NCBI RefSeq assembly: GCF_000219625.1
Contig: NC_018211.1
Location: forward strand, 2,379,573-2,443,572
Direction: 5' to 3'
From: Zymoseptoria tritici IPO323
Taxonomy: Eukaryota > Ascomycota > Dothideomycetes > Mycosphaerellales > Mycosphaerellaceae
Length of the DNA: 64,000 bases
The stretch's first letter is position 1. Each line of letters starts with the position of its first letter. The notes beneath the pieces were generated by a model that was given only the letters and a program-made list of their open reading frames with translations, was not told the origin of the DNA and searched no databases. Positions 35,853 to 63,869 of the stretch are shown piece by piece. The position numbers were made by a program, and so were the translations under genes.

Positions 35853-36330
35853 CCGGTAAAGACAAAGGTTTTTCGACGGTTAACCCGAGGTTCCGTCTAG
35901 GAGTATAGACGGGTACCTAAACCTCGGGTTAGCCGAAATCCGAGACCGGGAATCGACTCTACGGGGTCGATTTAGTCTAGAAGTACTCTACTACTATATA
36001 TCGAAGATACTTCTACTAGTAAATAATCTAGAAGGAAAGAGTCGGAGATAAGGTAGAGTTAAGAGTAGGGTAAACCTACTACCTATACTATATACTCGGG
36101 TTAACCGAAAGCTAGGGGTTAGAAAGGGTTCTACGGGTATAGAGTAGTCTATAAATAATCTATTACGGTCTCTAGGTAAAGATAAGATCTTAGACTATAG
36201 AGTATAAGAGGTATAAGTAAGAACAAGAGAGATATCCTTAGGTACCTTAGCTAGAGTAAACAACGTCTTAGACCCCTCTACCTAGTAATAGTAAGGGTTC
36301 CTAGGGTTTACTTTAGTTTAAAAGTACCCT
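35853..36330. other. Gene-free spacer with diverged satellite-like sequence
   Basis: Contains loosely repeated elements resembling the adjacent satellite (CGATTTAGTCTAGAAGTACT near 35,965; GGTAAAC...CCTACTACCTATAC). No coding frame was seen. Confidence 0.4.
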
Positions 36331-37280
36331 ACTATAGTATCTTTTAGTAGGTCTTGTCTTATAATATATACGGCAAAAGGTAAAGGGAAGCGGGGGTCTA
36401 TTACTTATCTATACCTCGATAAGACGTCTATACTACGGGAGCACCTCGATTTTATTGTAGGAATCGATTCTACGGGCACGAATTACTCTAGAAACAATCT
36501 ACTATAGTATCTCTTAGTCGGTCTTGTCCTATAATATATATAGTAAAAGGTATAAGGAAGTGCGAGTCTATTACTCGTCTACACCTCGATAAGACGTCTA
36601 TACTACGGGAGCACCTCGATTTTATTGTAGGAATCGATTCTACGGGCACGAATTACTCTAGAAACAATCTACTATAGTATCTCTTAGTTCGTCTTGTCTT
36701 ATAATATATACGGTAAAAGGTATAATAAAGTATAGGTCTATTACTCGTCTGTACCTCGATAAGACGTCTATACTACGGGAGCACCTCGATTTTATCGTAG
36801 GAATCGATTCTACGGGCACGAATTACTCTAGAAACAATCTACTATAGTATCTCTTAGTCGGTCATGTCCTATAATATATATAGTAAAAGGTATAAGGAAG
36901 TGCGAGTCTATTACTCGTCTATACCTCGATAAGACGTCTATACTACGGGAGCACCTCGATTTTATTGTAGGAATCGATTCTACGGGCACGAATTACTCTA
37001 GAAACAATCTACTATAGTATCTCTTAGTCGGTCTTGTCCTATAATATATATAGTAAAAGGTATAAGGAAGTGCGAGTCTATTACTCGTCTACACCTCGAT
37101 AAGACGTCTATACTACGGGAGCACCTCGATTTTATTGTAGGACTCGATTCTACGGGTACGAATTACTATAGAAGTAACCTACTATAGTATCTCTTAGTTC
37201 GTCTTGTCTTATAATATATACGGCAAAAGGTAAAGGGAAGCGCGAATAGGTTACTCTTCTATACCTCGATAAGACGTCTA
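36331..37280. repeat. 170-bp satellite, about 5.6 tandem copies
   Basis: The landmark GCACCTCGATTTTATTGTAG recurs at 36,441, 36,611, 36,781, 36,951 and 37,121, exactly 170 bp apart. Units are nearly identical, differing at a few sites such as CTACACC/CTATACC, GTCTTGTC/GTCATGTC and AGTGCGAGTC/AGTATAGGTC. CA and TG are rare here too. The first and last units are more diverged than the middle ones. Confidence 0.95.
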
Positions 37281-38199
37281 GACTATAGCTATACCTATAT
37301 CTACTAAAGTAAATCGATAGGAGGGGTTAAAAGAGGTCTAGAAGAACCTTAGTACGGTCTCTCTTAGGGTATCTTAGAATATTATACTATAGTAAAAGGT
37401 CGTATACTAGATACCGTTACTCGTATAACTCTTATATTCTATTACTTATCCCTACAACTTTAGGGAGGTGTTTAAAAAGCCTTAGAACTTATAAACTATA
37501 TAAAACTAGTCCCTAAGACTCGTAGGAGTAGGGTTTATAAGGTAGGATAGCTAAATATCTACTTCGGACCCGAGGTAAAATCCGGGTATTAACTTCGGAA
37601 ATTTATTACGGAACCGTTTTAAGAGCCTTTAAGCTGAAATTTGGATATAATATAGACTTAATACTCTACTTTTTGAAAAAAAATCTAAAGTGTACTATAA
37701 AAGTCTAATCGCAGTAAGAATCCAGCCTCCTAATCCCTGTCATTATCGGGGACAACCCTTATCTTTTAATACTATCTAGCGGTATATAGGTAGGGTTAGG
37801 GCTTAGGATTACGTCTTTAGGACTAAATTATAATATAAATAAGTATAGTAGTGTAACAGGTTGCTTACGTAACTTATAATTAGCTAGAAGTCTTAGCTCG
37901 GGTAAACCGGATAAAACCGCTTACTACTATAGAAGTAGGGTAGGTATTAGGGTATACCTAATGAAATCTTACGCGTTAGGGTTAAATACAACCCTAATAA
38001 ACATATTTTTACTAACATCCTTAGTAGGCTATACGTAGAGCGAGATACGTTCCCTCTACGCGCCCTCTCTCTGTTTTAGAGCTTTCTTAGCTAGGATAGC
38101 TATAGCTAGACCCTACCTTAATGTCCGCTACGTACGCATATACGTAGCGCTTACTCTCCTTCTCTTTCTCTTCCTTTCTTCTATAACAACACAGCTAAA
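37281..38199. other. Gene-free AT-rich sequence; possible promoter of the next gene
   Basis: No frame was recognised. CA-containing patches occur near 37,700-37,770. The last 60 bases before 38,200 are pyrimidine-rich (CTCTTTCTCTTCCTTTCTTCT) and then ACAACACAGCTAAA, typical of a fungal transcription start and 5' leader. Confidence 0.4.
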
Positions 38200-38836
38200 A
38201 TGCTACTTAGGTAAGAAGACTTCTTCTACTACTCTTTCTTTACTAATAGTACTAGGAGCCTAAGAACACAGACCGAGCCTACAAAGGCCTACAAGGAGTG
38301 GTCTACGGTAGACCCGAGCAAGATCCTAATCCCGATATGCCTTGTACATAACAAAGAACAAGAAGAACAGAACAAGAAGAAAACAGAAGAGCTAAATGCT
38401 CTTCTAGGTAGGTCTACTACCTAGACCTGTTCTACTATATAAACTAACATATATAATAGAGTCTACGACTGCTCGCATCGCATAGATCGAACAAGAGAAG
38501 AGAGAGCAAGAGGAAGCTAGCCGTAAGAAGATAGAGGAGCTAGAAGCTTCTCTAGGTAGGTCTACTCTCTAGACCTATTCTACTTAATAAACTAATATAT
38601 ATTATAGCTTACGCACACGAAACAGTCTTCTACGCGCAGCAAGAGACCGCGGCCCTTCACTACTAAATAAGTAAGCCTCCCCTATCTTATAATATACTTA
38701 TATCTTTACTAATACTTTTATAGAGACGTTAGAAGAACAGGTGCCTAAGGCCCCTTTCAAACAGGGAGCAGAGGATCTAATGCTCTCTATCGAGTACCCG
38801 ATCGACGAATTCGTAGAGCCTATGGATCTAGAGTAG
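38200..38836 (+). pseudogene. Five-exon gene for a 144-codon Glu/Lys/Gln-rich coiled-coil-like protein
   Basis: I do not recognise the protein. The splice model joins 38,200-38,210, 38,256-38,407, 38,460-38,555, 38,608-38,670 and 38,724-38,836. Introns are 45-53 nt with GTAAG or GTAGGT donors, CTAAC/CTAAT branch sites and TAG acceptors, and all phases agree (435 nt in total). Exon 2 encodes a segment with KAYKEWSTVDPSKIL, then a KEQEEQNKKKTEELNALL helix. Exon 3 repeats that type of helix (RKKIEELEASL) and its following intron copies the previous one, so an exon-intron unit was duplicated. Exon 5 ends SIEYPIDEFVEPMDLE. Exons 3 and 4 carry one in-frame stop each (TAG 38,483-38,485 and TAA), both one C-to-T step from Gln. 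Exons keep CA and TG while introns lack them. Either recently inactivated or read through. Confidence 0.7.
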
Positions 38837-38839
38837 ATA

Positions 38840-39766
38840 TACTAGTAGATCTAAGGGTAGAGATTAAAATTTAAGGCGTTTAGGTAAGACTTTCCTTCTA
38901 GACGGCCTATCTTAGGCTCTATCCTCTACTATAGTATCTTTTAGTTATCTAGAACTCTTTATTAGTATATTAACTCGTTTACTTTTTAATCTTATACCTA
39001 TAGCCCGGCTCTACGTCTTATTATAATATCCGGAAGTTATAGGTATTAAAACCGAAACGAGGGAAGCCTCCTACCGGTTCTACCTTATACTAGCTCTTAT
39101 CTACTCTCCTATATACTAAGGTTATCTAGACTATTAAGTAACCCTAGATTAATAAGGTAGTACCTAGTATATTAAAGCTCTAGTACCTCTAGACGTTAGA
39201 GTTATATACGGTAGAGAGACTAAGTATCTATTAACTTCCTTAGATAATAGCTTATTAATTACCTCGACCGATAGCTCGTTTATATATATTATACTAAGAT
39301 ATATATACTATCTATCTATGCTACTACTACTTCTAGGCTTATAACTATTAGAACAAATAAGTAGATAAAGCGATATAAAGCTAAGTAATCTATCTACGAA
39401 GGGGAGTCGAGGCCCTTATATCCCTATTATATATATAGATAGAATAGCCCGTAATATACTACGTAGGGTGCCCTATTTCGTTTCTAGGGTTCGAGCTATA
39501 TCTAGTAGGTCCTAGGTCTCCCGATATAGTCCCCCTATCTCTTAATATAGTCCTCATATCTCCCCTAATAGCGTATATAGCGCTAGTCGGATAACTATCT
39601 TTAACCTAGATACCTTATTACCTTAGTATTCTCTTAGACCGATAGAGTAAGTAGATAGAAAAGTTTAGCCTAGTTTAGTACCTATCCTCTTTCTCCTCGA
39701 TATACTATTTCTTCCTTTATACTATATCTATTAAGACTCTCGATATTAGGGTATCCTCGTAGTACT
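38840..39766. other. Gene-free AT-rich sequence
   Basis: Only short frames are present. A minus-strand open stretch near 39,470-39,570 (MRTILRDRGTISGD) could be an exon but has no supporting splice partners that I can see. Confidence 0.35.
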
Positions 39767-40050
39767 TTAACTTAGCCTCTCGATCTCCTCCTTAATAAGT
39801 AGAAACTCTTCCGACGTAAGATTAAATATATATCTATCTAACATTATTAGAGGCTGTTCGGTTCCTATAATAGCTTACCCGTATTAGTATAAGACGTTTG
39901 TTAGGGATATAGAGGAATAATACCGTTTAACCGTAGTTTAAAGTAGAGGTTCTTTACTACTTGCTCGAATTCCTTAGCTAGAGTCTCGTCGCTAGTCTGT
40001 CTACATTCTTCTCGTATTCTATCTAGAATAAAGTAGAGATCCGTAGGCAT
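39767..40050 (-). CDS. Two-exon member of the small helical subtelomeric family (74 aa)
   Basis: Function unknown. Exon 1 is 39,924-40,050 (ATG at 40,050, MPTDLYFILDRIREEC) and exon 2 is 39,767-39,864, ending in TAA. The 59-nt intron has a GTATTA donor, CTAAC and CTAAT branch candidates and a TAG acceptor, and lies in phase 1 after VVKNLYFKLRLN. Exon 2 encodes PLIMLDRYIFNLTSEEFLLI followed by KEEIERLS. It matches the family pattern: exon 1 ends near a Leu-Tyr pair in a helix, then comes a phase-1 intron, then PL..L....[NY][LI]T.EE...L..EI.RL. No internal stops. The next gene upstream on the same strand begins 204 bp away, so the two form a tandem pair. An upstream in-frame stretch (40,083-40,051, and across a 49-nt intron to about 40,300) is also open and could extend the N-terminus. 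Confidence 0.75.
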
Positions 40051-40253
40051 TCTAGTCGTTACTTCTATCGGTAGTAGAAAGTACTAGAGAATATTAGCTA
40101 TCTAGTATTAGGCTCTTAGAAAATGTACCTACCTTAGGCATTCTATTAAGCCTATTTAGTACTAAGAGGAGTTCTATTCCTTTATAGAATAGGTAGAGTA
40201 ACCGTAACTCGATTAAATAGAAGGAGGTATTAGAGTAGTAGTTAGGGTGCTCT

Positions 40254-40587
40254 TTAGTACCTAAGACGAATAAGACGCCTAATCTCGATACGTAGTCTAT
40301 CCTCTTCCTCCGGCGTTAGGTTATCCTCTAGGCGGCGGAGATACTCGAGGGGCTCTCCTAGTCTTGTAGATATATCTAGACCTATTAGAATATTATCTAG
40401 GTTTCTTATTCGGCTAAGACTTACCGATAAAGCGCTCTCGGAGATATAGACAGATAATCCGCTCCTTAAACTGCTTAGCCTTATCCGTAGCTTCCGGCGT
40501 ATTATTAGGATCGTTAATAAGTCGCTCGAGGCTAGTAAGAAGCCTTTTTGGTATCCCGATATAGTACGTAACGTCAATCTCGTCCAT
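40254..40587 (-). CDS. Two-exon member of the small helical subtelomeric family (96 aa)
   Basis: Function unknown. Exon 1 is 40,425-40,587 (MDEIDVTYYIGIPKRLL...ERIICLYLRERFI) and exon 2 is 40,254-40,381 (TRLGEPLEYLRRLEDNLTPE then EEDRLRIEIRRLI). The 43-nt intron has a perfect GTAAGT donor, a TAG acceptor and phase 1. The frame has no internal stop and ends RLRY-TAA at 40,254. The protein should be almost all alpha-helical, with no signal peptide or membrane segment. It aligns with the genes at 39,767 and 42,773 over both exons, sharing IPKR, the LY pair before the intron and the PLEYL...EIRRL motif. A plain single-ORF reading of this locus starts inside the intron and misses the real first exon. 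Confidence 0.85.
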
Positions 40588-40589
40588 CT

Positions 40590-41559
40590 AATACTTTAGG
40601 TATAGTATAGTAGTAGGGTTTAGTAGTAGTACTTAGCGTACTCTAGGTAGTAAAGATAAATATTCTATAAGTAGGCGGGTTCGGAGTCTTTTAAGTACCT
40701 TAGGTAGGGTATCGAATATATAGTATATTATATTAGCTATAGAAGTACTATAGCGTATACTATATATCTATGGGCTATATAATATAGGGTATATATATCT
40801 AGAGCAAAATACTAAACGTAAAGCCTAGACGGCCTTAGGGTATATAGCTTAGGTATAAGGGTTTATCCTATATAGAGTACCTCTAACACCTATATCTAGA
40901 GGCTCTCTAGGCTACGGTCTAGCCTATACTAACATAGGATAGTAGTAGATATCTTATAGCGTACTATACTCTATAGTAACCTAGACCGGGCTAGGGTCTA
41001 GTATTATACACTAGATATATTCTTCTTATAGGTCTATATCTACTTAGGACTCGTATACTATAGAGAGTAGTAGCGCTTTGTATATTTAGACCTATCCTAC
41101 GCTAAGGATATACTATTCTAGGAGGTATAGTATATACTACTTAATAGAGCGCCGGGCCTCGGGGTTCTATAGAGTATAATTACTTCTAGAGGTATCCTTA
41201 TACCCTATATAATATATAGTCTTTATACCTATATACTCTACGGCTTAGGTAACGGGATATATAGGTTATAATATATATATTACCGGTTCGGGTTAGGTCT
41301 TCGTTAGGACTTCCGCTATATAACTACCGCTATCTACCTATAGTCTTTCTATAATAATTACTCTCCTCTATTCTCTTTCTTCTCTATCTATCTTAGGAAG
41401 AAGAGATATAGAACGCCTTACTACTACTACTATCTCCCCTACGTATCTCTACTATCTAGAGATATAAGCTCTCTCTCGGTTCTTAAAGCTAGAATACTAT
41501 TTCTAGAAAGTATAGAGGGACCTACTATATTATCTACTACTTAGGGTCTAATAGTATCT
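40590..41559. other. Gene-free AT-rich sequence
   Basis: Dense TATA and TAG words with no supported frame. Near 41,330-41,400 pyrimidine-rich runs (CTCTCCTCTATTCTCTTTCT) may belong to the 5' region of the plus-strand gene that follows. Confidence 0.4.
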
Positions 41560-42470
41560 AGTGTCTTCCTCCGGGTCTTCTACTACCGATCGCGCTTCGA
41601 AATAGTAAGTAGGGCCTACTCTACGCTCTTCTACTCGGAGTAAGAGGGCGGCCTCCGGATCTATAGCTCGAGATACTAAGAAGGACGTCCGCGTTCCGAT
41701 ACCGGAGGTAGTAAGAGAAGCTATCGCACGGAGCGTCCGTACGTATATAGTAGCTATATATAAACCCTACTAACGTCTCTATAAGGAGATCTTAGGATAT
41801 CGTACGCCTTTTCTAAAGGTATTCTTAATACTAAGGACCCTAAGATATAGGAGAAGATACGCGACCTTATAAAGGATATTAAGGCAGAGAACTATATATA
41901 CGGCCCTCCGAAGAGCAAATACCGGATGCTTAACGACCGTGCACCCCTATATAGATAGGACGGTCTTATAACGGGGGTTTCCTAGGGGTCTATAGTATTA
42001 TTTTAGGGTATTATAGAGTTAGGGACTACGGGTAATTACTTAGGAAGTAGGATATAGAAAGGTTATATAGGGAGAGACGTATAGAAACAGTCTAGGGACT
42101 CTAGTATACATAGTATTCCTAAAGGGCTAAAATATAGGGTACTAGTAATATATAAAGATAAAGAGTAGGCTCGAGTAAGATACTATTAATAAGAACTTAC
42201 TAGCGTCTACTATATAGTATAGAGGTCTATATAGGTACGATTAGAAGCCTCTACTATAAGGTAGCGATAAAGAGCTACTTACTCTAGGAGTATTTTACTA
42301 CTTCTACCTTATCTCTAGTAGCCGCCGCGAAGATAATAACTATATCCTTAAGCTACTTATATATTAACGTAAGCGCCCTACTGCTCTCGAACGATTATAC
42401 GCTAGCTCTTATACGAGTCGTTTACGTAAGTAATAGATATACGCGGTAGGGTACTAAAGTCTACTCCTAA
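41560..42470 (+). pseudogene. Decayed multi-exon gene of unknown function
   Basis: Coding character on the plus strand shows in two parts. The first has a frame with KRAASGSIARDTKKDVRVPI ending EVVREAIARSV. A 47-nt intron (41,739-41,785; GTACGT donor, CTAAC branch, AAG acceptor, phase 1) leads to a frame with KIRDLIKDIKAENYIYGPPK and SKYRMLNDRAPLY. The second part, about 42,190-42,450, reads SDKELLTLGVFYYFYLISSS then RREDNNYILKLLIY and RPTALERLYASSYTSRLRK. At least eight TAG/TAA codons interrupt it, all one transition from Gln or Trp, with adjacent pairs (TAGTAA). The start, the exact exon joins between the parts and the end are not resolved. It occupies the same position, between minus-strand pairs, as the plus-strand genes at 38.2 and 45.0 kb. 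Confidence 0.45.
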
Positions 42471-42772
42471 ATAATAGCCGGAGCTATTATCTAACTACCC
42501 GATATTTAAAACTCTACTAACTAATGTTTATAAAGGCCCTAGGGTTAGAATCCTATATATTATAACCTATGTCTTATATATTTTACTCTCTACTCCTATA
42601 TTCCCCCTAGCCTATATCCTGTAGTAGCTTAGAATAGTAGTCTAGCATAATATACGCCCTAGCTCTTATAGATAGACTTATCTTATAACTAGCTAATCTC
42701 TCTCTATACTTATATAGACCCTCCTTCTAAGATAGACTCTTTTAATTTTATCCTCCCTATAATCCTACTAGG

Positions 42773-43182
42773 CTAGACTATCTCTTCCTCTCGAACTATT
42801 GTTCGTAGTCTATCTATCTCGTTTAGAAGAATATTATGCTCGTCCGTCGTAATATAGCCTTCGAGACTCGGTAGGAATTCGAGCGGGTCTCTAAGGTTTC
42901 TCTCGTCTATAGTTATATAAGCTCGGGTCTTCTTATACTCTCTTACTTAATACTTACTAAGAAGAACAGCCTTAATATAAAGCATATAGACAACCTTCGT
43001 AAATTGCCGTACTAGCCGCGGCGCGTAGTGTCCTAGAGGTAGAGACTCCCGGTCTATTTCGTCGAGAATTATAAACGTTCTCTTAGGAATTCTAAAGGGA
43101 TAGTTAATAAGGACTCGCTCGCTCTATATAGGGTTAGTATAGTATAGTCTACCTCGAAGCTAGGGTATCCTACAATAGACAT
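42773..43182 (-). CDS. Three-exon member of the small helical subtelomeric family (102 aa)
   Basis: Function unknown. Exons are 43,174-43,182 (only MSI), 42,958-43,123 and 42,773-42,906. Introns are 50 nt (GTAGGA...CTAACCCTATATAG, phase 0) and 51 nt (perfect GTAAGT donor, TAG acceptor, phase 1). The frame is intact: INYPFRIPKRTFIILDEIDR, then VRQFTKVVYMLYIKAVLL before the second intron, then LRDPLEFLPSLEGYITTDEH and LLNEIDRLRTIVREEEIV. IPKR, LY and PLEFL...EIDRL align it with the 96-aa gene at 40,254. The 9-nt first exon is the weakest part, because the ATG rests only on that model. It forms a tandem pair with the gene at 43,443 (261 bp upstream on the same strand). Confidence 0.8.
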
Positions 43183-43442
43183 CGCTTCTCTCTTACTCTA
43201 TTACTCTTTCTTTCTCTTTATATTATTAAATAGGGCAATCGGCTTATAGTATCCTAGAGTAGAGAGGGTTCCTAGTCCCTACTAATCTTAGTAATAGGAA
43301 GAAGAGATTTCGATATAATCTTTAGTAAAGTAAAGGGTATAGTTATCTTACTTACCCGAGATAAGCTAGTAGTAGAGTAGGGTAGGAGATATTCCTAGTA
43401 TCGTAGAATAGACGTAGCCTTAGATAGCTATTAATTCTATAT

Positions 43443-43806
43443 CTAGAGAGTAGGTAGCCGAGGATCCGGTAAGGTAGTAAAGCGCTCTATCTCCTCCTTA
43501 ATAAAGTTATAATTCCTCGGGGAGTCTTTAAGGATCGGTGCGTTCTTTAGCTCTTCGAGGTAGTAAAGACCCGGGTAGAACTTTTGCTTATAGCCTAGTC
43601 CTTAAGTTAGTAATATCGCAAAGGTATAGATAGGCTATAAGGGTACCCTTAATCTTCTCTAAGATATATAGATTAATTAGACTTGCCCGAAGCCTCCTAA
43701 CTTCCTCTCGAATATTCTCGGGTAGGGTTTCTTCCCTAAGGCGTTCGAGAACGCGGTATAGCTCTAGCGGGAGATAGAGGGATAGAAAGAGATCTTAATG
43801 TTCCAT
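43443..43806 (-). pseudogene. Two-exon family member with a stop at codon 4 (103 codons)
   Basis: Exon 1 is 43,647-43,806 and exon 2 is 43,443-43,594. The 52-nt intron has a GTACCC donor, an ACTAAC branch and a TAG acceptor, phase 1. Exon 1 encodes LYRVLERLREETLPENIREE and ASLINLYILEKIK; exon 2 encodes YKQKFYPGLYYLEELKNAPI and NYNFIKEEIERFTTLPDPR. The layout and the LY-intron-L.YL..L...EIERF pattern match the family. Codon 4 is TAA (CAT TAA GAT), one C-to-T from CAA, so a full-length product cannot be made unless it is read through or begins elsewhere. Beyond the stop, another frame stays open (about 43,490-43,356, LLPYRILGYLLSRYRINSYL) and may be part of a further decayed gene. Confidence 0.7.
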
Positions 43807-43809
43807 CTA

Positions 43810-44957
43810 TTAGTAGAGCTTTTACTTTATTAGTAGAAAGGATAGGTAAAGTAGAGTATAGGATCTATACTCGTAGAATACTTATAGGTAGAAAGAGCGT
43901 CGGTTTAGGCCTTCTTATATTATCCGAGCGCCTTCTAGGCTATAGGATATAGAGTCTAGCTATATATCCTATATCTATTAAATCTATTCCCTATATACTA
44001 TATATATTAGGTAAAGAGTTACGGTCATAGGGCTAGTAGTATATAGGGTATAGAGTATAATAAACCGAAGTATATTCGGGATATATACTATAGAATACTT
44101 AGATTAGTAGACTCTACCTTAGCCTCGTTTTAGAGTAAAGCTATATAGGGTTTCTATCTATAGGGTAGGGTAATATTATAGGGTTATATATATAGATATA
44201 GGTCCGGATTATAGTACTATATAGCTACCTAGCCGTACTTCTAAGAGATTATTATCTATATAAGGTATAGGACTAGTATTTGCTATAGCTAAGAAGAAAG
44301 GTTCTAGGGATACTATATATAGGTTTATAATACCTATATAGTAAGAGGGATCCGTCTAAAACTATATAGTTATTTAGAGTATAGGCTAGGTAGAGCTACG
44401 GTATACTATATTTATATATATATATATATATTATAGGATAGGACACTATATAATACCTTCTACTAGGCTTAAATAGGCTAGACGTAGTATAGGGTATATA
44501 GATTATTCTCTTTAAGCTAAGACAAGATATAGAACCCTTAAGTCTAGAGGTAGTACCTACTAATATAGAGTATATACTACTAGTACTATATAGCTCGACT
44601 AAGATACTATAGCTATCTACTAGAAGAGCTCTTAAGACCTTATACGCTATAGAATATATGTAGGGTAGGGCGTTAGGGCTAAGATTTAGCCCTATCTCGA
44701 GCTAAGCCGGGATTAGGGCTTTAGCTTATTCTAGACCCTCTCTAGCCCTACTAGCTTATAACTAGTACTATATATATATAGATTGTGACTCATTCTTACC
44801 TCTCGGGTACCCTTATCCGCTTTAGGAATAGTAGCCGTAGCTTAGTACGGAGCTAGCGTAGTATATCTAGCTTAGTTCTTCCTTTACCTATCCCTTTCCT
44901 TCCTTATCTCTATAGTTCCTTATAATACCTATCTACTACAAGTACAACACTTCTACA
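43810..44957. other. Gene-free AT-rich sequence; promoter-like end
   Basis: No supported frame. The last 80 bases before 44,958 are rich in C and T (CCTTTACCTATCCCTTTCCT) and then TACAAGTACAACACTTCTACA, a plausible promoter and leader for the next gene. A TATATATATATATATA stretch lies near 44,415. Confidence 0.4.
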
Positions 44958-45790
44958 ATGCCTAAGTGCGGTCACAAACGCGGTGCAGACCACCCCAAAT
45001 TCGTGCCTTATAATCAAAGGCAATCTAAGTAAGATAAATATCTACTACTTTCTCTTACTTAGTACTTACTTTCCCTAGGAACACAAGCATCCAGGGAGCC
45101 TACGACCGCATCCGAGAGCTCGAAACACTCCTCGAGCAAAGGGACAAAGAGATACAAGAGCTAAAAATAGCTCAAAACAGTAGTAGTACCTCTAATAGTC
45201 TTAAAAACCTTAGTTTTTACTAATTTCCTCTAGATTCCTCGGCCTCCTCTACTATAACCGACCTCTCCCAGCCTACCGTACCGTCCGGACAATACATCGG
45301 AACGTTCTTCGACCCGTCTTTAGGGTCTAGTCCGGTATACGGAGCTGAAAGTAACTATATAGCCTCTAAAACCCTTAAAATCCTTAGTTTTTACTAATTT
45401 CCTCTAGATTCCTCGGCCTCCTCGACTGCGTACGACCTCTCCCAGCCCCCTATACCGTCCGGACAATGTGTCGGAACGTTCTTCGACCCGTCGTTAGGGT
45501 CTAGTCCGGTATACGGAGGTGGAAATAACAGTAGGGCCTCTAAAACCCTTAAAATCTTTAGTTTTCTCTAAATATTCTTAGGCTCCTTAACCTTCCCGAC
45601 GGCATACGAGCTCTCCTAGCCTTTCGGAACGTCCGAACAGTATTCGGGAGGGCTTATAGGCCCTAACTTTGCACAGGGCCAGCCGTACGCCTTTGAAAGT
45701 AAGACTATATATCTATATCTACTAGCTACCTTACTAATTTTATTAGATACGTCTACTCTACAGTTTGAGAGCAACGAGTATGGTGCATAG
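44958..45790 (+). pseudogene. Six-exon gene with a coiled coil and three tandem repeat exons (190 codons)
   Basis: Unknown protein. Exons: 44,958-45,028, 45,079-45,179, 45,234-45,350, 45,408-45,530, 45,582-45,698 and 45,747-45,790. Introns are 48-57 nt with GT donors, CTTAC/CTAAT branches and TAG acceptors; all joins are in frame. It starts MPKCGHKRGADHPKFVPYN (a Cys/His-rich start), then a zipper-like helix (IRELETLLEQRDKEIQEL). Exons 3, 4 and 5 are homologous (117, 123 and 117 nt, all phase 1-1), for example DLSQPTVPSGQYIGTFFDPS in exon 3. Their introns are homologous too. In exon 5 the LSQ codon reads TAG where exons 3 and 4 have CAG, a direct view of a RIP-type nonsense change. At exon 4 the donor G has become A and a GT six bases on keeps the phase. 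The end is TAG at 45,788. Exons keep CA/TG; introns and flanks do not. Confidence 0.75.
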
Positions 45791-46764
45791 GTAGTTCTAT
45801 AGAGGCGTACGGAGTTTGTTCTACCCTATAACTACTTACTTTTATATCCCTTTAAGTATAATAGCTATAGTAATAATATAGGTACTAAGCCTCTTTATCT
45901 TATACTCTACTTTCGTAGGGGGTTATTATAGAGCGCTACTATATAGCATAGAGAGTAGACGCGGGGTCGGTTAGAAAGTAAGTATCGGTAGGCCTTACTT
46001 AGCGTTTACTCTACTACTATCCCTAGTATATAACTAGATATAAACTTATATAGTTAAGAAGCTAGAAGCTAGACGACCTTTAGTTATCCGGAGAATTTAT
46101 AACTAGTACCTCTACTCTAATCTAGACTATAGCTTTAGGGTACTACTAGGGTTAGTAGATAGTAGGTAGGGTTAGGGTACTCTACGCCTTAATTAAGAGA
46201 CTCCTACTACGAGCCTTCTATACTATAGATATAGGATATTCCGGGAGAGGCTCTTTTATATAAACCCGGTAATAGAGACTAAATCTTAGCTATTCTAAGA
46301 CTATAGCCGATAGTCTAGTTAGGTATTAATCTTATAGCTTAGGGTTAGATAGAATAAAAGAGTTAGGAACGTATATACTTAGTTAGTTCCTTAGGTAAAT
46401 AAATAATTAATCCGAGGTATTATACTAGATTAGACTAAGCTTAAGTTATATCTCTTAGTAAAGAAACATCTTCGGATAGGCTAGTACTACTAAGTCTTAC
46501 CTAGACTAGGGAACGTTACCTATAGCCGTCCTCTAGGGTTTACTAGCTAAATTTTTATTATATACTATACGTACTATAACCTACGAGATAGACTAGTATT
46601 CTAGCGTAGGAACTATAATATAATAGTAATAATAGGAGGCCTCGTAGATAGTAGATTAAAGAGACCTTCTAATAGAAAGACTATATACCTCTAGGTAAAA
46701 CGTCTAACTAAGTAACTAAATACCCTAGACTCCCGTATATATATCTTCGGACTAGCTAAGTTAC
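45791..46764. other. Gene-free AT-rich sequence
   Basis: No supported frame. Part of 46,500-46,764 on the minus strand could hold further exons of the next gene (a TAG|GTAAC at 46,767-46,760 resembles CAG|GTAAC), but I could not join them confidently. Confidence 0.35.
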
Positions 46765-47213
46765 CTAGGATATCGGAGCAAGATCTATAAGAGTGTTAGG
46801 ACCTCGGGTTAATATAAGCTATATATAAAGAGTCTTACCGATGTTTAAAGTAAGAACCTGTTCCTTTAAGATTCCTCGCTCGATTCCGGACAGAGTATCT
46901 TTAGAGACACCTTGACCTAGTAGCTTCGATATATTCTCCTTTACGTTCCCGGTATCTCGATTCTCTTTATACTTAGTTAGTATAAGTCTACCTAGAGAGT
47001 AGAGTATAACATACCGGTTATAAAGATTGTATACTCCTTCTTTAGATTATATAGATTAATACTAGACTCTAGCTTATCTAGTAGTTTAAGGGTAGCCGGG
47101 TCTTCCGAGTAGGTTTCTCTTAGAGTCTTTATAATATCTATAATGTTATAGTCTCTACTACTAATTAGAGTAAGTAGTAGAGAGTCCTTAGTAAGGGAGG
47201 ACGTATACGGCAT
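46765..47213 (-). CDS. Three-exon member of the small helical subtelomeric family (114 aa)
   Basis: Function unknown. Exons are 47,015-47,213 (MPYTSSLTKDSLLLTLISSR ... LESSINLYNLKKEYTIFIT), 46,839-46,964 (TGNVKENISKLLGQGVSKDT, then LSGIERGILKEQVLTLNI) and 46,765-46,784. Introns are 50 nt (perfect GTATGT donor, ACTAAC branch, AAG acceptor) and 54 nt (GTAAGA donor, CTAAC branch, TAG acceptor), both phase 1. Exon 1 aligns with the family (IIKTLRE...INLYNL before the intron); exon 2 is more diverged. The terminal TAG directly precedes GTAAC, so it may be a mutated CAG at an exon end rather than the true stop. Confidence 0.7.
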
Positions 47214-47292
47214 AATAGAGAGTAGAAGGGTTTTAGGAAAAGTAAAAGAAGGTAGGGACTTAGTCCGGTTTAGAGGGTTAAATACCTTTGTC

Positions 47293-47295
47293 TAC

Positions 47296-47372
<77 letters not shown>
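47293..47372. repeat. 7-bp microsatellite (CTACTAT)n
   Basis: About 11 copies of CTACTAT in a row. A 74-codon open frame across it is only the translation of the repeat. Confidence 0.9.
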
Positions 47373-47373
<1 letters not shown>

Positions 47374-48063
47374 ACCGTATCTACTATCTCCTATATTATA
47401 TATACTATCTATTATACCTAGGGAAGTAGCTACCGTACTCTATTTATTATCTATCGTTTCTTATTTACTATACTCTCCTTACTATACTCTATCTACTATA
47501 CTATGCCTATAGGTTATATTAGTAACTACTAGTAGCCCGGTACTCTCTAGGGCGTAGAGGGTAACTCTATACTAACTCGGGCTACTAGTATAGTATTAAA
47601 AACTAGAGCTTAAGTCCTTTTAGATACTCTATATATACCCTCTCCTATTAACTCTCTAGGGTACGGCGTTAGTATAGTCTTATATTCTAGGCCTTTACCT
47701 ACTTATCTATAATAACTTCCCTTAGAATCGAAGATATTAGTTTAACCTATAATAGCCTTAGGGTTTAGGGTACCTTAAGTAGATAATAACTATAGGATTA
47801 AAGAGGGTTATTAAAGAGGCCTAAGAAGATAGGGACCCTATATACTCTAGGAGACTAAGACTATCTAGTAGGGTAAGAAGAGCCCCTACCCTATTCTACT
47901 TATAATAGGCTAGAGCTAGGAGTCGGTATAGAGTCCCTTAGATATCCTAAGGCCTTTAAGGTAGGAAATAGTATACTTATTTGCTTACGGTCTTCGTAGA
48001 GTAGTTAATAGAAACCCTTCCTATATATATAGCTTACTCTCCTTCCTAAGGTCTATCCCTCTA
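47373..48063. other. Gene-free AT-rich sequence
   Basis: No supported frame. The minus strand at 48,060-47,970 may continue the C-terminus of the next gene if two more TAGs are read as Gln. Confidence 0.4.
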
Positions 48064-48794
48064 CTACTCCTTAACGCCGTATAGACCCGGGTACTCTAGA
48101 CTCTCTACTACCTAACTAGTAGCCGCCTTATAGGTATAATAAGTCTGCCAATCCTTAAAGTCCTTCCTCGCCGGCGGTCTAGATATAGTTAGTAAAGGGC
48201 TCCTTAGTTTAAAGAGCTAAACCTACCTAGTATAGACCGGCTTATACTTAGGTCTATTCTTTCCGTTTAGGCCTTGTAGTGTCTTTCGTAGGCTTCCTAG
48301 GGAGCCGCCCTTCGGATTTGCGTATTGTTCTCTCTTTTCTAATCTCTATTAGTCTAGTCTAGTATATATAGTAAGGGTATATATACCGTCTATAGGGAAT
48401 ATCTTCTTAGTAGAAGAAGAACGTTCTGTCCGGTCTTCCGGAGTACTACTAGGGGTACTAGGCGCCTTTATAGCGCCTTCGATAGGCTCCGAGCGCCTTC
48501 CGGTTGTCTGTTGTAGTAGAGAGGCCTCCGGTTCTTTACCTCTTATAGTAGAAGTAGTAGGGTTCTCCCGAACATCTAGAGTAGAACTAGACGGTATAGA
48601 GGGCTCGCGAGGCTCGTTCGGGACTCTCTTAGGTAGAGCAAACGTAATAGGCCTAGGAGTAGCCCTAATAGGGCGGGCCGGCCTTCGGGATACGCCCTTA
48701 GCTATAGTAGTTTAGTAGAGTAATAGATATAGTAAGGTCTATACTTACGCTGTATAAGGCAAGGGCTTACGGCGTAGTACGTATAGAGAGACAT
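48064..48794 (-). pseudogene. Three-exon gene for a Pro/Ser/Arg-rich protein (about 211 codons)
   Basis: Unknown protein. Exons are 48,749-48,794 (MSLYTYYAVSPCLIQ), 48,227-48,701 and 48,064-48,178. Introns are 47 nt (perfect GTAAGT donor, CTAAA branch, TAG acceptor, phase 1) and 48 nt (GTAGGT, TACTAAC, CTAG, phase 2). Exon 2 encodes a disordered basic stretch (KGVSRRPARPIRATPRPIT), a Ser/Thr/Glu-rich part, then EKREQYANPKGGSLGSLRKT. Exon 3 reads ARKDFKDWQTYYTYKAATS. Inactivating codons are an adjacent TAA-TAG in exon 2 and one TAG in exon 3, each one transition from Gln or Trp. The upstream region is pyrimidine-rich on the coding strand, as expected for a fungal promoter. The C-terminus beyond 48,064 is uncertain. 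Confidence 0.65.
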
Positions 48795-48904
48795 CTTTAG
48801 CCTAGGAAAGGCAGAGAGTACCTAGGGAAAGGTTAGTAATAGAAAGAGTAGCTTAGAAGAACCTACTTACTTTATAAGATATAAAGTAGAGTAGAGACTC
48901 TAAC

Positions 48905-48968
48905 TCTAGAGAGTATAGAGTAGAGTAGAGTAGAATAGAGTAGAGTAGAGTAGAGTAGAGTAGAATAG
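48905..48968. repeat. 5-bp microsatellite (TAGAG)n
   Basis: About 12 copies of TAGAG with two TAGAA variants. Confidence 0.9.
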
Positions 48969-49094
48969 TATAGAGAGTAGTAGGTACTATAGTAGTATAG
49001 AGGAAAGAAAGAGGAGAGATAGGTACTATAGCTATTATTATATAGGCTACCTAGGACATTAAGGTTGCTATGCTTACTAATAGACCTATATACT

Positions 49095-49350
49095 AATCTA
49101 TATATATATATAGATGTAGCTAAGCCCTACTATATATATATATCTATATATATATATAGATCTTTTAGCTATATCTATATATAGATCTTTTAGTTATATC
49201 TATATCTATATATATATACATTCTTAGGTTGGGCTATACGTTTCTAGGTTTAATCTATGTATATATATATAGATCTTTTAGCTATGTATATATATAGATT
49301 CTTAGGTAAGGCTATACGTTTCTAGGTTTAATTAATATATATATATAGAT
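49095..49350. repeat. TATA-rich short repeats
   Basis: Repeated blocks of (TA)n followed by GATCTTTTAGCTATATCTA, and two copies of GGCTATACGTTTCTAGGTTTA (near 49,233 and 49,311). No gene. Confidence 0.8.
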
Positions 49351-49527
49351 AACTTAGAGTAGTATCTACGTATAGTCTAATATATACTATATAGTATAGG
49401 TTATATAGTACTTAGGGTTTAGTATATACTATATAGAGATTAGCTAGGGAATAGTAACCTTAATATTCTAGGGTAGAGCTACGGCTTATTATATATAGGG
49501 TAGAAAAGTTAATTTAGCGACGACGTA

Positions 49528-49983
49528 AGGGGTTACGGACAAACGGAGACCGGTGTTCGACGCGGCGTAGTCGCTTTACCCTAGGATAGTCGTCGGGTAT
49601 ATCGCCGTCGTCGACCTCGCTGTCGCCGTCGCTACCGAGGGGTATCGGTAGCGTTGGTCGCGCATAGCTCCGCGAGTAGACCTCCGATCGCAAAATCGAT
49701 AGCGGGAATCGATTTTTTAGGGTCGATTTACCCTATATAGATACCCGAAATGTCGAAATCCGCTTACCCGGCGATTTCGAGATTTTATTTAAATTTCGGC
49801 TTCTAGACCGACCCTGACCAACGCCTAACGCCCTCTTAGTAAGCGGGGCCAAAATAAAGAAAAATCAATTTCTCGACAACGAGAGGGGTTACGGACAAAC
49901 GGAGACCGGCGTTCGACGCGGCGTAGTCGCTTTACCCTAGGATAGTCGTCGGGTATATCGCCGTCGTCGACCTCGCTATCGCC
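49528..49983. repeat. 100-bp direct repeats around a GC-rich island
   Basis: A segment of about 100 bp starting AGGGGTTACGGACAAACGGA at 49,528 recurs at 49,884 (offset 356 bp), with only a few transitions (CCGGTG/CCGGCG, CTGTCG/CTATCG). The 250 bp between keeps CA and TG and is GC-rich compared with its surroundings. No open frame spans it. A small terminal-repeat (TRIM-like) element is possible. Confidence 0.7.
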
Positions 49984-50530
49984 GCTACTATCGCTATCCT
50001 TCTACCGCTACTACTATTAAAGTTATACTAAATTACTAAAGCTTAGGGTTAGTTACGGGAAATACTAGAAGGACTCTAACACCGGTAATAGACCTAAGAA
50101 AGTTAGTATACTCTAGAACGCCCGCCGGATATAATTTACTTATTAACGTAGCTAGGAGTATTACTTTAAATTAATTAGAGAAAAATATAGGGTTAGTAGT
50201 AGGGTAGGGTTTAGCTTAGGGTAGTAGCTTAGCTTAGACTAAAAACGGGAGCTTACTACTATACTATAGATAGGTAACCTTACCGTCTATAGTTAACTAG
50301 AGCAAAGTTCTAGAGTTAGGGTATCTATCTAGTAGTATAGATATAAAGATAAACGAGTAGGCTTAGAAATTACTTAAGGAATTAGGGCTATAGGGTAAGT
50401 ATATAGATACTATATATATAGGGTAGTAGGTAACCCTTAAACCCTAGCTATACTTCCTTCCCTAGTATACCCTAGTACTATTTTTATTTCTTATCCCCTA
50501 GGTACGCCTATACTAGAACCCTAAGCCTCT
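49984..50530. other. Gene-free AT-rich sequence
   Basis: No supported frame and no repeat beyond short TAGGGTTA-like words. Confidence 0.4.
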
Positions 50531-51317
50531 CTACTCCTCTATCTCTATTTTTATAGGAGTATAGTCCCTTAAAATACTCCTAACTTCCTCTACCGTAAGG
50601 GTATCTACCTCCTCTCTAGTAGACCTTAGCTTAAATAGACTAATAGCCTCGATCTCTCTTTCTTTATACTCCTTATTAAAGGAGTTTAAAGATCCGATTA
50701 ATCGAAGATCGTCTACTATATCTACTTCTAAGTAGAAGTCGCGCGCTCCCCTAATATTATACCTTAGGGTCGTAAATAACTCCTTCGGAAAGAGTCCTCT
50801 ACTAGTAAAGGTACGAGAAAGATCTAATTAGGATTAGAGTTAGTATAGTAGAGACTAGCTAGAGGATATAGGCTTACTTTGATCTTTAAAGTAGAGGGAA
50901 TAGCGAGTAAGGTACTCGTTAATCGTCCGGATAAGATTCGAGGTCGAAGTATCGTTTAGAGCCTTAAGATTATAAATATATCGGTTAAGATCTAGGTCTA
51001 GCTCTGTCCCAGAATGATTATAGATAAATCCTAGTTATAGATATATTAGTATACGCTCTAGGGTTAGGGTTAGAGCTCTAACTAATAGCTATCTTATAGG
51101 TCTTAGAGTCGAGATACTTAGCCCGCTTAAGGAAGTATATAACCCGGACCCGGTTTAGGTACTCTACGACCTTTAGATTATAGGATAGGTAATTAATAAT
51201 AGCCTTAATAGTCCGGTCTAGGCAAGTCGAGCGGATAATAGGGTTACTATTAATATAGTTCTTAATAAAGTAGACGATTGTCGGAGAGAGGATAGAGGTA
51301 TTATCCGCGGTAGACAT
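50531..51317 (-). CDS. Three-exon gene, intact, 226 aa, unknown function
   Basis: Exons: 51,083-51,317, 50,878-51,030 and 50,531-50,823. Introns are 52 nt (GTTAG donor, TACTAAT branch, TAG acceptor) and 54 nt (GTAAGC donor, CTAAC branch, TAG acceptor), both phase 1. The 681-nt coding sequence has no internal stop. The N-terminus reads MSTADNTSILSPTIVYFIKN; exon 1 ends after LNRVRVIYFLKRAKYLDSK; exon 2 has LNRYIYNLKALNDTSTSNLI; exon 3 has LFPKELFTTLRYNIRGARDF and ends TPIKIEIEE. Predicted helical and soluble. Intron phase and the helix before intron 1 resemble the smaller minus-strand family, but exon 3 is extra. Only the first exon is visible as a single ORF. This is the best preserved spliced gene in the window. 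Confidence 0.85.
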
Positions 51318-51485
51318 TTCTTAGAGACTCTATTAGTTTTATAACTAGGTTAGGAGGTTAGAGTATAGGTTCTTACCTAGGAAGTCGGTCTAGAAAGAGT
51401 ACCTAGGGTCTAAGTTAGTATAAGGATTAGGGTAGGAAAAAAAGAGCTTACTAGTAGTAGGGTAGAGTATAGAATAATCCTTAGG

Positions 51486-51533
<48 letters not shown>

Positions 51534-51552
51534 ATACTAGTACTAGTTCTTA

Positions 51553-51593
<41 letters not shown>
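51486..51593. repeat. Trinucleotide microsatellites (AGT/GTA)n
   Basis: Two blocks of about 14 and 13 triplets, separated by an ATACTAGTACTAGTTCTTAG segment. Confidence 0.95.
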
Positions 51594-51941
51594 ATACTAG
51601 ATAGAAGAGAAAGAGAAGATAAAGAGAGGAAAGGAAAGGATTACTTATAGATTAGGGATAAATCTCTATACGTATAGTTTAGAATACGTATAGTATATAG
51701 TAGCTATACTAGGAAATCTATACTCTATATAGTTTAGAGTATATAGAACTATAGTATATAATAGCTAGATCTAGGGCTATAATATATATATAGAGTTCCG
51801 ATTATATATATATAGAGTAGTATATAGTATATATATTAGATAGGGTACTATAGTAGAGCTAGCTTAACTAGCGATATATATTAAAGTATTATATATATAG
51901 GATTTAGGCTTAGTATAGGGTATAGCAGTCTATCTATATAC
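51594..51941. other. Gene-free AT-rich sequence
   Basis: TATA-rich, no frame. It forms the left flank of LINE copy B. Confidence 0.4.
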
Positions 51942-51955
51942 TACTTTCTACTATT
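51942..51955. repeat. 14-bp target-site duplication, left of LINE copy B
   Basis: TACTTTCTACTATT is repeated exactly at 57,531-57,544. Confidence 0.92.
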
Positions 51956-57530: not shown

Positions 57531-57544
57531 TACTTTCTACTATT
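57531..57544. repeat. 14-bp target-site duplication, right of LINE copy B
   Basis: Exact repeat of 51,942-51,955. Confidence 0.92.
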
Positions 57545-58193
57545 ATACCTAGAGCGTACCCTATATAGCTTAGTTTATAGCTTAGGGCTATAGGGTTAGG
57601 TTATTATATATATATTAAAAGTATCTCTAAGAGACTAAGCGGGGAGACTATAGATACCCTATAGTACTAGGGTAGAGTATAACCCTAGGGTGGGGTAGAG
57701 AATATACGCTTAGGCTTAGGATTCTTAGCTTATATATTATATAGAGTACTCCCCTATATATATAGCTCTATAAGTAGTAGCCGGATATTAGGGTTACTAA
57801 GGTTAACGCCTATAAAATATAGAATATACTATATTACTACGGTTAGTCTATTATATAGTTTAGGGGTAGAATATAAGCTCTATATACCCTAGATAGACTA
57901 TAGGGTTTAGGGTTCCCTATAATCTATATTATTTTAGGGTAATAGAGATACTATATAGCTCTAGACCTAGGGTTATAACTATATAGGGTAGGGTAGGATA
58001 TACTATAGTATAAGGTTAGAGCATAGACTATAAAGGTGCTATAAGATTCTACATAGACCTAGAGGTTCCTTCTTAACTTCCTACTACTTCTCTACGCTTC
58101 TACCCCTATACCCTACTCTACTACTACCTCTACTACTACTATTCTTACTATATATTAGTAGTACCCTACTACTATCTATTAAGGGTTATAATA
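57545..58193. other. Gene-free AT-rich sequence upstream of the helicase
   Basis: No frame. CTTCTTAACTTCCTACTACTTC and further pyrimidine-rich words at 58,070-58,150 could belong to the promoter of the helicase gene. Confidence 0.4.
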
Positions 58194-61100
58194 ATGGATC
58201 CTAGTAGTAAGGACTATATTAATAACCCTAAACTAATAATAGACCGACCCTCGAAGACTTTAGGGATAAAGATCTAGTTAGAGAAAACCCTACGACTCCT
58301 CTTAGCGATACTATTATTTCCTATAGTATAGAGATTAAGACAATCTTCTGTTCTAAATGCTATATAAATCTTACTAGAAATAACTATACTAAGCACCTTA
58401 AAGCTAAGCATAAGCAGATCTATACTATATATAAGGATTCGGGTACTCTAAGGGACTTAACTCTTACTATTAATAATCTAGAGCTATTAGATATAGACGG
58501 CTTAAAGAGTCTTATAGGGCCTAATTTGTACTTATTTAAGGAGCTAGATATCTACTTTAATGCTTTAAAGTGTAGGGAGTGTAACTTCCTTAATATTTCT
58601 AGAAAGGAAGTAAGGAGGCATTATAATCTAGAGCACGGTAATAATAATAAGGGGACTACTAAAGTAGATTGGATTCTAGAAGGTGTACCCGCTCAGCTAC
58701 TAGAGGGTTTTAAGGATAATAAGAAAATATACTTTATACCTAAGTTACCGGACCTAGAACTAAGACGATCTAGAGATACTAGAATACCTAGTAATAGAGA
58801 GGTATCTAGATCTACTAGCCGGAGTAGGGATAGTAGCTCTAGTAGTAGTAGCCGGGTAGTAGAGCTAAGTTCTATTCCGGATAATACTAAAGAGCTCTTA
58901 CTTAGTACATATTCTAAAGAAGAGTTAGGCCGTAGTAAGGATTTACTACTAAGTAGTAGTATTGAAACAAATACGAGGCTACTAAATAGCTTTATTAGAA
59001 AGTCAAATATTATACGGTATCTAACAGATAAGAATAGAGACATCCTTATTACTCTAGGATACTCTAATACTCTATATACTAGGGAGGAAACGGAGTTTAA
59101 CTTAGAGGATAAGATAGGATTAGATCTTAGGGAACTGGAAAGTTTAATCGCTAAGTTTCTAGCGGATACTAGTAGTAAGATCCTAGCAGTCCCCTTAGGT
59201 ATACGGCAACGACTTAGAAGTAATAATATCGACGAAAGAGTATTTAAGGACTTTACTCCGCATATAAGTAAATATACTCGAAGTACTTACTTTAATATCT
59301 ATATACAGCTTATTGTCTTTACTATTAAGGTATGCTTTATACGCTCTAACTTTGAGGGTAGTATAGACCCTATAGAGTCGGAATACTATAATATAGTAAG
59401 TAGTATTTTAGTTCCGGATCGGGTCTATACTCTAGTCGGCGAGATTATTAAGTTAAATCTTAGTACTATCTATCTAGAGGAGAATAAACTAGAGCTCTTC
59501 TATAAGTTTAGCTTACTAGGGATAGAGTTACTTAAGACTAAGATCCCTTTAGCGGTTAATAAGGATAGTACCCTAGATAATCTCGTAATTAATTTCTACT
59601 ATATAAACTGTCTAGATAGAAGAACTAAGGAGGTTAAGGAGGTCTTAGGAATAAGTCAACTTAGTAGTTATCTAGTATATAATGCTAGACTTATTACCCT
59701 AGCTTATTATCTCTTTCGAGAGAAACTAGAAGACGATCTATATACCGAGCGAGAACTAGAGAACGAGCTTAGAATAGAGGACTTTATAAAGACATATCTT
59801 ACAAATACTAGTAGTAACTATTTCGAATTTATCTTTGTTATCCGGCCTTATCTCCTAGCTTTAAGTAGAGAGACTACAACTACAGCCGGTTTAATAGGAG
59901 AGGTTAGGCCTAATATTATTATCTATAATAATATAGAGTACCCTATCGAGAAGATTAAGGAGCTCTTTAGTAATATATATACTAAACTAGAGGACATTCT
60001 ACTACATAGACTTCTTAGTATTAATAGTCTAGACGACCTAGACTTTAACTTTAACCGAGTAGACGATAATAATCTTCTTAATAGGGTTAGGTTTAGTATT
60101 TTAGACATCGAAAACCTCTCGGCCTTTAAGTATAGACCCTACTTTCTAGATAGACTATTAACTCCGGGTACTTATTATAATAAGACCCTCGTAAAGGGGG
60201 TTAGGAATAATAAGATAGTTTTTAAGGCTAGTAAGATAGAGCGGTTTAATAGTAATATAAATTCGTTTGTTACCTATCTCGCTTTAGCAATATACTTATT
60301 TAGCGGAGGGCCTCTTCGCAGCACGGAGTTAACTACTATTCTCTTTAAGAACATCGAGAGTAAAACTCGTAGCCTATTATATAATAAAGAGGAAGGTGTT
60401 TTTACTATCTTAACCGATTGGAGTAAGAGTAATAATATTACTCGTAGGGAGAAAGCAAATATCCGGTTTATACCTCCTCGACTTAGTAAGCTACTTATTA
60501 CTTATATTCTTTATATTATACCCTTTAAAGAGTATATTAATAGAGAGTACTATACGCTAGACGAACCGAGTACTCCTTTACTCTTAGTACGGGATAATAA
60601 GCCGTTGACTACTAGTCTTCTTAGTACTACGCTAGAGTTAGAGTCTAGTCGTCTCTTTCGAAAAGGCCTTACTATAGCTTCTTATCGAAAGATTATTAAC
60701 TATATTATTAAAACAAAGTTAGGTAATACTAACTACTATAGTAGTAGCGAAGGAGAGGAGGTAAAAGAGGATCTTATCGAAGATATACAGGCTAATAGAT
60801 CTACTAAAACTAGCTATAACTACTACTTTAATATCGGGTTCAACTTTAGTAATAGTAAGAACCTAGGCCTCTTAGATAAGGTTAAGACCTTTACTATTCT
60901 CTACTTTAACTACTTTAATTTATTAACCCCTACCGATGTTAATAATCCTTCTATACGGAAGCTCCTAGACTCGTCTACTCTAGAGAGCTTTAATATCGAG
61001 CCGGACTTAGGATTTAGTCTTAGTACAGCTACTATAGAAAGAAATATTAAGGAGCTATATAAGGACCCTACGGCAAGCTTTAAAAGCCAGATTCAAAAGG

Positions 61101-63166: not shown

Positions 63167-63580
63167 GGGTGGAGTATCTAGGGTTTAGGATTAGAGAAAG
63201 AGGGGCGTAACTAGGTAGTATAGAAATATACTAGGGTTCCTACTTCTCCGGTTCTTATAGGTAGCTTAGTAGGTTTCCCTAAGTCTTAAGTTTAGTTTAG
63301 AGTAGGGAATACTTAGTATTCTAGGGTATAGGGGTTATAAGCTAAGTTACTAGAGTTCGGTTTATAGTCTTATATAGATAAGGCTATATAGAGTAAGGGT
63401 ATAGAGCTAGACTAATTAGCCTAAGATTACTACGTATACGGTAACCCGTAGTAGAAGTAAAGGGTTATAGGATTCCCGGATTAGGATTTAGATAGAGGGG
63501 TAGTTAAGGGTTATACGCTAAGGGTAGAGGTAGGTTATAACCCGGTAGATAAATTTTCGCTATATAGGGTTTTAGGTTGA
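63167..63580. other. Gene-free subtelomeric sequence
   Basis: TA-rich with many TAGGGT-like words; no frame. It separates the helicase stop from the subtelomeric motifs. Confidence 0.5.
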
Positions 63581-63780
63581 GGTACGCGCAGCGTAACCCG
63601 GTTAATAGATAAGGAGTTATAGCGTATAGGATAACCGTATTAAGGGTATAGGGTACGTAACCCGCTTAGGGTAGAGGGTACGCGTAGCGTAACCCGGTTA
63701 ATATATAAAGGATTATAGCCGATAGGGTTAACCCGTGTTACGGTTAGGGTTTTATATACGCGAAGCGTAACCCGTTAAAC
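63581..63780 (+). repeat. Three copies of a 24-28 bp subtelomeric motif
   Basis: GTACGCGNAGCGTAACCCGG followed by TTAATA recurs at 63,581-63,608, 63,678-63,703 and (shorter) 63,757-63,780. The base at N differs each time (C, T, A). Spacing is about 97 and 79 bp. Confidence 0.85.
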
Positions 63781-63851
63781 GGGCAAAAGCGTTAGAGGTT
63801 AAGTAGGAAAGGTAGTAGAGTAAATAAGAGGTTCAAATCCAAGGGTTTGTA

Positions 63852-63869
63852 CGCGCGCGTAAGCGCGCG
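63852..63869. other. GC hairpin at the telomere junction
   Basis: CGCGCGC-GTAA-GCGCGCG: a 7-bp perfect stem with a 4-nt loop, ending two bases before the first telomeric-variant repeat. Confidence 0.7.

Follow-up and report, generated by a model that had tools for sequence, protein, structure and literature searches.

Does the telomere-proximal DNA of contig 8 of Zymoseptoria tritici IPO323 hold a family of small spliced genes, and which loci belong to it? We examined a window of 64,000 nucleotides (NCBI RefSeq assembly GCF_000219625.1, contig NC_018211.1, positions 2,379,573 to 2,443,572, forward strand), which is the right end of this contig and closes in TTAGGG repeats, i.e., the telomere. 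An initial annotation had described five minus-strand loci within it (A to E) as paralogous small spliced genes. That description stood for A-D, which were recovered by profiles in 8/8 exon tests, and failed for E, whose scores lie at chance level; on these comparisons the family has four members, not five. We regard the coding origin and the kinship of A-D as close to certain given the sequence evidence, and it is quite probable that they are diverged tandem paralogs forming a small orphan protein family in a mutator-scarred subtelomere.

The gene models (window coordinates, minus strand) share a core exon, a phase-1 intron and a last exon. Predicted gene A (40141-39767) opens with a first exon of three codons (M-P-K; 40133..40141), followed by a 49-nt phase-0 intron (40084..40132, GTAGGT...TAG, with CTAAT 9 nt before its end), a core exon running up to Leu-Tyr plus six residues (39924..40083), a 50-nt phase-1 intron (39874..39923, GTATTA...AAG, CTAAT again 9 nt before the end) and a last exon (39767..39873) that encodes PLIMLDRYIFNLTSEEFLLIKEEIERLS up to the stop codon. 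Predicted gene C (43182-42773) is built likewise, with a three-codon first exon (M-S-I; 43174..43182), a 50-nt phase-0 intron (43124..43173, GTAGGA...TACTAAC...TAG), a core exon (42958..43123), a 51-nt phase-1 intron (42907..42957, GTAAGT...TAG) and a last exon (42773..42906). In B (40587-40254) and D (43806-43443), the core exon starts with an ATG immediately after a TAG at the shared boundary: B consists of a core exon (40425..40587), a 43-nt phase-1 intron (40382..40424, GTAAGT...TAG) and a last exon (40254..40381), and D of a core exon (43647..43806), a 52-nt phase-1 intron (43595..43646, GTACCC...TACTAAC...TAG) and a last exon (43443..43594). Profile and model both identify the core and the last exons of all four genes (the A last exon by a profile of B, C and D), the motif described below additionally identifies the last exons of A, B and C, and the two mini-exons come from the models. 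The genes follow each other in the transcription order D, C, B, A, spaced by 260 bp (D-C), about 2.2 kb (C-B) and 112 bp (B-A), and their predicted products (91-103 codons) contain much Leu, Ile, Glu and Arg. The reading frames of A, B and C are free of stops; the mini-exon supplies a candidate start codon for C, which otherwise seems to have none. D carries a single early in-frame stop in its contig-8 copy, at a site that is open in a second copy of this region on contig 13.

Kinship was evaluated by leave-one-out searches, in which a profile built from three of the four genes was run over the six frames of the window for each main exon (partial second matches at the training members were left uncounted). 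The left-out member was the best match outside the training members in every one of the eight tests, and seven scores lay above the best match of each of 10 dinucleotide shuffles, including that of the D last exon (8.1 bits; shuffle maximum, 6.4 bits). The B core exon, at 11.5 bits, was surpassed by one shuffle in ten (12.6 bits). In pairwise comparison, none of 1000 residue shuffles reached the real score for A-B, A-C, A-D and B-C, while 16 and 21 of 1000 did so for B-D and C-D. With hhalign, each core exon compared with the other three returned a probability of 71-94% (E = 1e-7 to 4e-5). The mutual identity of A-D is about 20-29%. Several comparisons used TD in place of the N of the model at the start of the C last exon, which affects the exon edge only. 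The motif initially proposed for the second exon had no match at all as printed; once its second gap was lengthened by one residue and Ile was allowed beside Leu at a single later position, it matched A, B and C only when all six frames of the window were read, and 20 shuffled windows gave no match.

Gene structure is concordant with these scores. The phase-1 intron (43-52 nt) interrupts the same aligned codon in 4/4 genes, located at Leu-Tyr plus six residues, so the shared design claimed at the outset holds for A-D; it breaks down at E, where 11 residues intervene. A TAG lies exactly 12 codons ahead of an invariant proline in all four genes; in the block at large, 4.9% of the positions on the minus strand read TAG. 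In A and C this TAG closes the predicted phase-0 intron (49/50 nt, GTAGG donors, CTAA[CT] 9 nt from the end). A mini-exon structure, defined as an in-frame ATG exon plus a 40-75 nt intron with a GT[AG][AGT]G donor, stands upstream of 1.3% of the 751 minus-strand TAGs of the block, those of A and C included (5.3% with any GT donor). Two of the four family members have it, and in each the exon has three codons and the intron 49-50 nt, a pattern noticed by eye before its frequency was tested. In four of the six A-D introns, CTAA[CT] lies 9-11 nt from the 3' end. The initial annotation had overlooked the 5' mini-exon and phase-0 intron of A and C as well as the matching TAG boundary of B and D, and these features are new additions to the description.

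Locus E (46765..47213, minus strand) was modeled with three exons (47213-47015, 46964-46839 and 46784-46765), which are stop-free and separated by introns of 50 and 54 nt; the model stops at 46765, the coordinate given in the initial annotation. Its pairwise scores against the four genes were reached by 83 to 822 of 1000 shuffles, its best stretches against the A-D profiles scored only -1.2 and 2.5 bits, and its profile-profile probability was 0.6%, where 100 shuffles gave up to 2.1%. It is very unlikely that all five loci form one family with E as an outlier: the Asn-Leu-Tyr near the end of the E first exon, the 50-nt phase-1 intron behind it and the location of E nearby on the same strand speak for such a grouping, and the chance-level scores, the intron placed 11 rather than six residues after Leu-Tyr and the later exons, which lack the A-D motif, speak against it. 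A protein of 97 residues (P0002, label lgn) is 86% identical across the E first exon. The match starts in both at Met-Pro-Tyr and fades just past an Ile-Thr-Gly-Met that spans the predicted donor of E, as expected from exon conservation and intron divergence, P0002 being known as a protein only. By sequence, E thus looks like a plausible real gene, separate from A-D. A stretch of its second exon (GVSKDTLSGIERG) resembles, by eye only, a helix-turn-helix.

No relative of A-D was found in Pfam, solved structures or protein searches (other fungal genomes lay outside this scope), consistent with the initial remark that the family was not recognized. All four proteins fell below the curated cut-off of Pfam, and domain scans of the members detected neither a transposase nor a polymerase nor a helicase domain. 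B and the A-D profile were searched against 5.8 billion proteins, and the 6 and 1705 candidates, respectively, yielded only the B fragment of the window itself; A, C and D may be missing from this collection, as their single-exon fragments may be too short for it or start-less. In the genome (39,686,251 bases, 21 contigs), a 4.2-kb DNA query matched only the block that contains A-E and its contig-13 copy, plus places matching 95 and 63 query bases. Protein queries (B, C and the family consensus) likewise returned only the block and the contig-13 copy, besides a match on contig 1 (E 0.10). The 82-residue consensus reached all four genes plus this contig-1 place, which the profiles do not support as a further member. 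Used singly, B and C missed the other paralogs, so such searches could overlook more distant members at other genomic sites. Profiles scanned over stretches of contig 13 (60 kb), contig 16 (10 kb) and contig 18 (8.7 kb), 78.7 kb in total, and over three short loci revealed no further member among the four best matches per locus, a set that on contig 13 left out the D core exon; the best matches beyond the contig-13 copies scored 5.4 and 5.8 bits, the latter being a remnant of the A last exon on contig 18. In the literature within reach, a scope that leaves out most subscription papers and all supplements, the A-D genes are undescribed.

Structure prediction was consistent with helical proteins. 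AlphaFold2 models, which cover single exons folded separately, the spliced protein not being contiguous in the DNA, gave only helices for the B core exon (residues 6-9, 14-24 and 31-53; mean predicted local distance difference test score (pLDDT) 82) and two helices with isolated bridge residues for the C last exon (7-14 and 20-42; mean pLDDT 79). Foldseek, run with the B core exon model only, listed 74 matches at E up to 10 and none at 0.001. We saw no signal peptide in the translated N-termini of A-D, a judgment made by eye only.

The setting of these genes is a duplicated and mutated chromosome end. A-E lie in a subtelomeric block (36499..51955, no strand assigned) that has an inverted copy on contig 13 (6524-21983, 99.1% identical), and window positions 57531-64000 match the first 6.5 kb of contig 13 at 99.6%. 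The end of contig 18 (L017, near 5437) carries window positions 36499-39794 at 98.5%, in a match that stops inside the last exon of gene A. CA/TG dinucleotides are scarce across the whole window, with ratios to AC+GT of 0.03-0.59 per 2 kb, and this depletion is the mark of a CpA-to-TpA mutator (repeat-induced point mutation (RIP), Dim2-linked mutation). Between the block copies on contigs 8 and 13, 47 of 96 substitutions lie in a CpA context. The available part of one source states that functional Dim2 promotes CpA-to-TpA change in Z. tritici and that the IPO323 copies are all non-functional (PMC8016269).

Two observations point to constraint on A-D in the past, which we consider likely. Among the paralogs, the second codon position differs least and the third most in 6/6 pairs, and the A-D exons retain CA/TG 3x better than the 39-44-kb flanks (26:111 vs 27:364 relative to AC+GT, p = 1.9e-4). 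An excess of synonymous over non-synonymous change, the test proposed in the initial annotation, is thus weakly seen among the paralogs and absent between the block copies. These and other parts of our interpretation face several counterpoints, which we consider together. The codon-position result was obtained on a protein-based alignment, which favors it. When segments were drawn at random from the whole block, 1268/5000 retained CA/TG at least as well as the exons, a control that weakens CA/TG retention as proof of selection. Between the block copies, 4/5 differences in the coding sequence change either the protein or a stop, one of them at the D stop, and therefore give no sign of present constraint; with five coding differences in total, the ratio of non-synonymous to synonymous rates (dN/dS) between copies is not useful. 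Among the paralogs, 346 transitions and 626 transversions make up 972 substitutions, a proportion that indicates saturation only, and, as there is no transition excess, the share of the mutator in their divergence is not visible. On the structural side, B and D offer no ATG further upstream from which a mini-exon could start and carry their own ATG directly 3' of the TAG, no well-placed branch-point motif occurs in the B intron or the C phase-1 intron, and the gene models are predictions from DNA. The exon-wise folding and the signal-peptide call by eye, given above, count on the same side.

What, then, could explain the locus other than diverged paralogs of which some may still function? The main rival, to which we assign somewhat less than an even chance, sees in A-D a decayed pseudogene cluster of real paralogous descent that makes no working protein now and decays slowly under the CpA mutator. 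The in-frame stop of D on contig 8, a C start codon that depends on an unproven mini-exon, the preponderance of non-silent differences between block copies and the strong CA/TG depletion of the region all agree with it. It has to be reconciled, however, with the frames of A, B and C being open throughout and their introns being of the GT-AG type, in a region in which stop-free runs of 53 codons begin at 356/12,565 minus-strand positions, with the contig-13 copy of D being open at the stop site, and with the local CA/TG retention in exons. On this sequence evidence, whether at least one of A-D still makes a functional protein seems to us roughly a toss-up.

Derivation of A-D from fragments of a transposable element or of a subtelomeric helicase element is disfavored, and we hold it to be very unlikely. 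The repeat-rich subtelomere and a telomere-linked RecQ-type helicase gene some 15 kb away make such an origin conceivable, whereas, apart from the short and marginal matches given above, no dispersed copies beyond the block and its contig-13 copy appeared in the genome DNA and protein searches, at their sensitivity, and the domain scans showed no transposition or helicase domain in A-D. That the frames are open merely by chance under biased composition can be dismissed almost entirely: mutator-scarred DNA is indeed biased, the proteins are indeed rich in a few residues, and one shuffle in ten did surpass the B core-exon score, yet dinucleotide shuffles stayed below the real scores in the other seven tests, the corrected motif appeared in 0/20 shuffles, and exon order, strand, phase and intron position are concordant in 4/4 genes.

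Under the preferred reading of A-D as diverged tandem paralogs, an ancestral gene would have been duplicated locally, and the mutator would have contributed, at least in part, to the divergence of its copies; the stop in D, present in one block copy only, is of the type that this mutator generates. The products would be intracellular all-helical proteins, with protein-interaction modules as the likeliest role, an assignment that we consider possible but doubtful. The genes are probably silent most of the time under subtelomeric heterochromatin, since Z. tritici subtelomeres bear trimethylation of histone H3 at lysines 9 and 27 (H3K9me3 and H3K27me3), as given in the accessible part of the source (PMC4589918). 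A further proposal, improbable when taken as a whole, is that the chromosome-end mutator itself diversified this helical family: CpA mutation would separate tandem copies until they fall below the homology threshold of the mutator, and the resulting variability would be useful, e.g., in self/non-self recognition or chromosome-end conflict, with expression only upon heterochromatin opening.

If transcripts confirm the models, A-D would represent a family with no relative in any database searched here. Their exons can be as small as nine bases and their introns measure 43-52 nt, a structure that single-exon prediction breaks apart. A multi-gene family could then outlast divergence where duplicated DNA normally gets destroyed, and gene counts in mutator-scarred subtelomeres may be underestimates. 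Even if dead, A-D would still illustrate that readable gene structure is kept in such DNA.

We also recorded other features of this chromosome end. A 170-nt minisatellite of six copies (36313-37462) is common to the ends of contigs 13 and 18. At 38350-38607 (plus strand), a 110-nt unit occurs twice, each copy encoding a charged stretch of coiled-coil character with a donor-like site behind it, resembling an exon duplication. A spliced-looking gene start (MPKCGHKRGADHPK...) at 44959-45710 (plus strand) is followed by three 174-nt tandem repeats that resemble repeated exons with introns, and by eye the CA/TG content of this segment is above that of its surroundings. The 5.6 kb at 51956-57530 on contig 8, less depleted in CA/TG (0.38-0.47), are missing at the corresponding place of the contig-13 end, where the two matches that flank them share 14 bases in the manner of a target-site duplication, so this segment is probably a later insertion. 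Positions 58232-63166 (plus strand) contain an intact RecQ-type helicase frame of 1644 residues with DEAD and Helicase_C domains, and with OrsD below cut-off. It has 95 CA+TG vs 488 AC+GT, with Met at 0.1%, His at 0.6%, Gln at 0.7% and Trp at 0.2%, and, judged by this composition, looks like a coding sequence with few mutator targets remaining.

How does the cluster compare with known systems? Among solved structures, the top match of the A-D profile was PDB 1rso, at a chance-level E of 0.085; this entry is the L27 domain of SAP97, a small helical interaction domain, and we claim no membership in it for A-D. Telomeric RecQ helicase genes are already known in Z. tritici, where chromosomes 8 and 13 share a 37-kb subtelomere with a RecQ pair and a guanine-plus-cytosine (GC) content of 34.7%, according to the accessible text of Dhillon et al. 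2014 (PMC4522978). In line with that report, the cluster and a RecQ-type frame with 34.8% GC are common to contigs 8 and 13 here. Unlike the RecQ repeat described there, A-D have no helicase domain, and small spliced genes are unmentioned in the accessible text. The available portion of Grandaubert et al. 2015 (PMC4502367) lists 1798 orphan genes in Z. tritici and eight species-specific paralog families comprising 23 genes; like A-D, these have no assigned function in that portion. At an identity of about 20-29%, A-D could be split by a clustering rule, and if they stand outside the eight paralog families of that annotation of IPO323, the four-gene cluster would be a notable addition.

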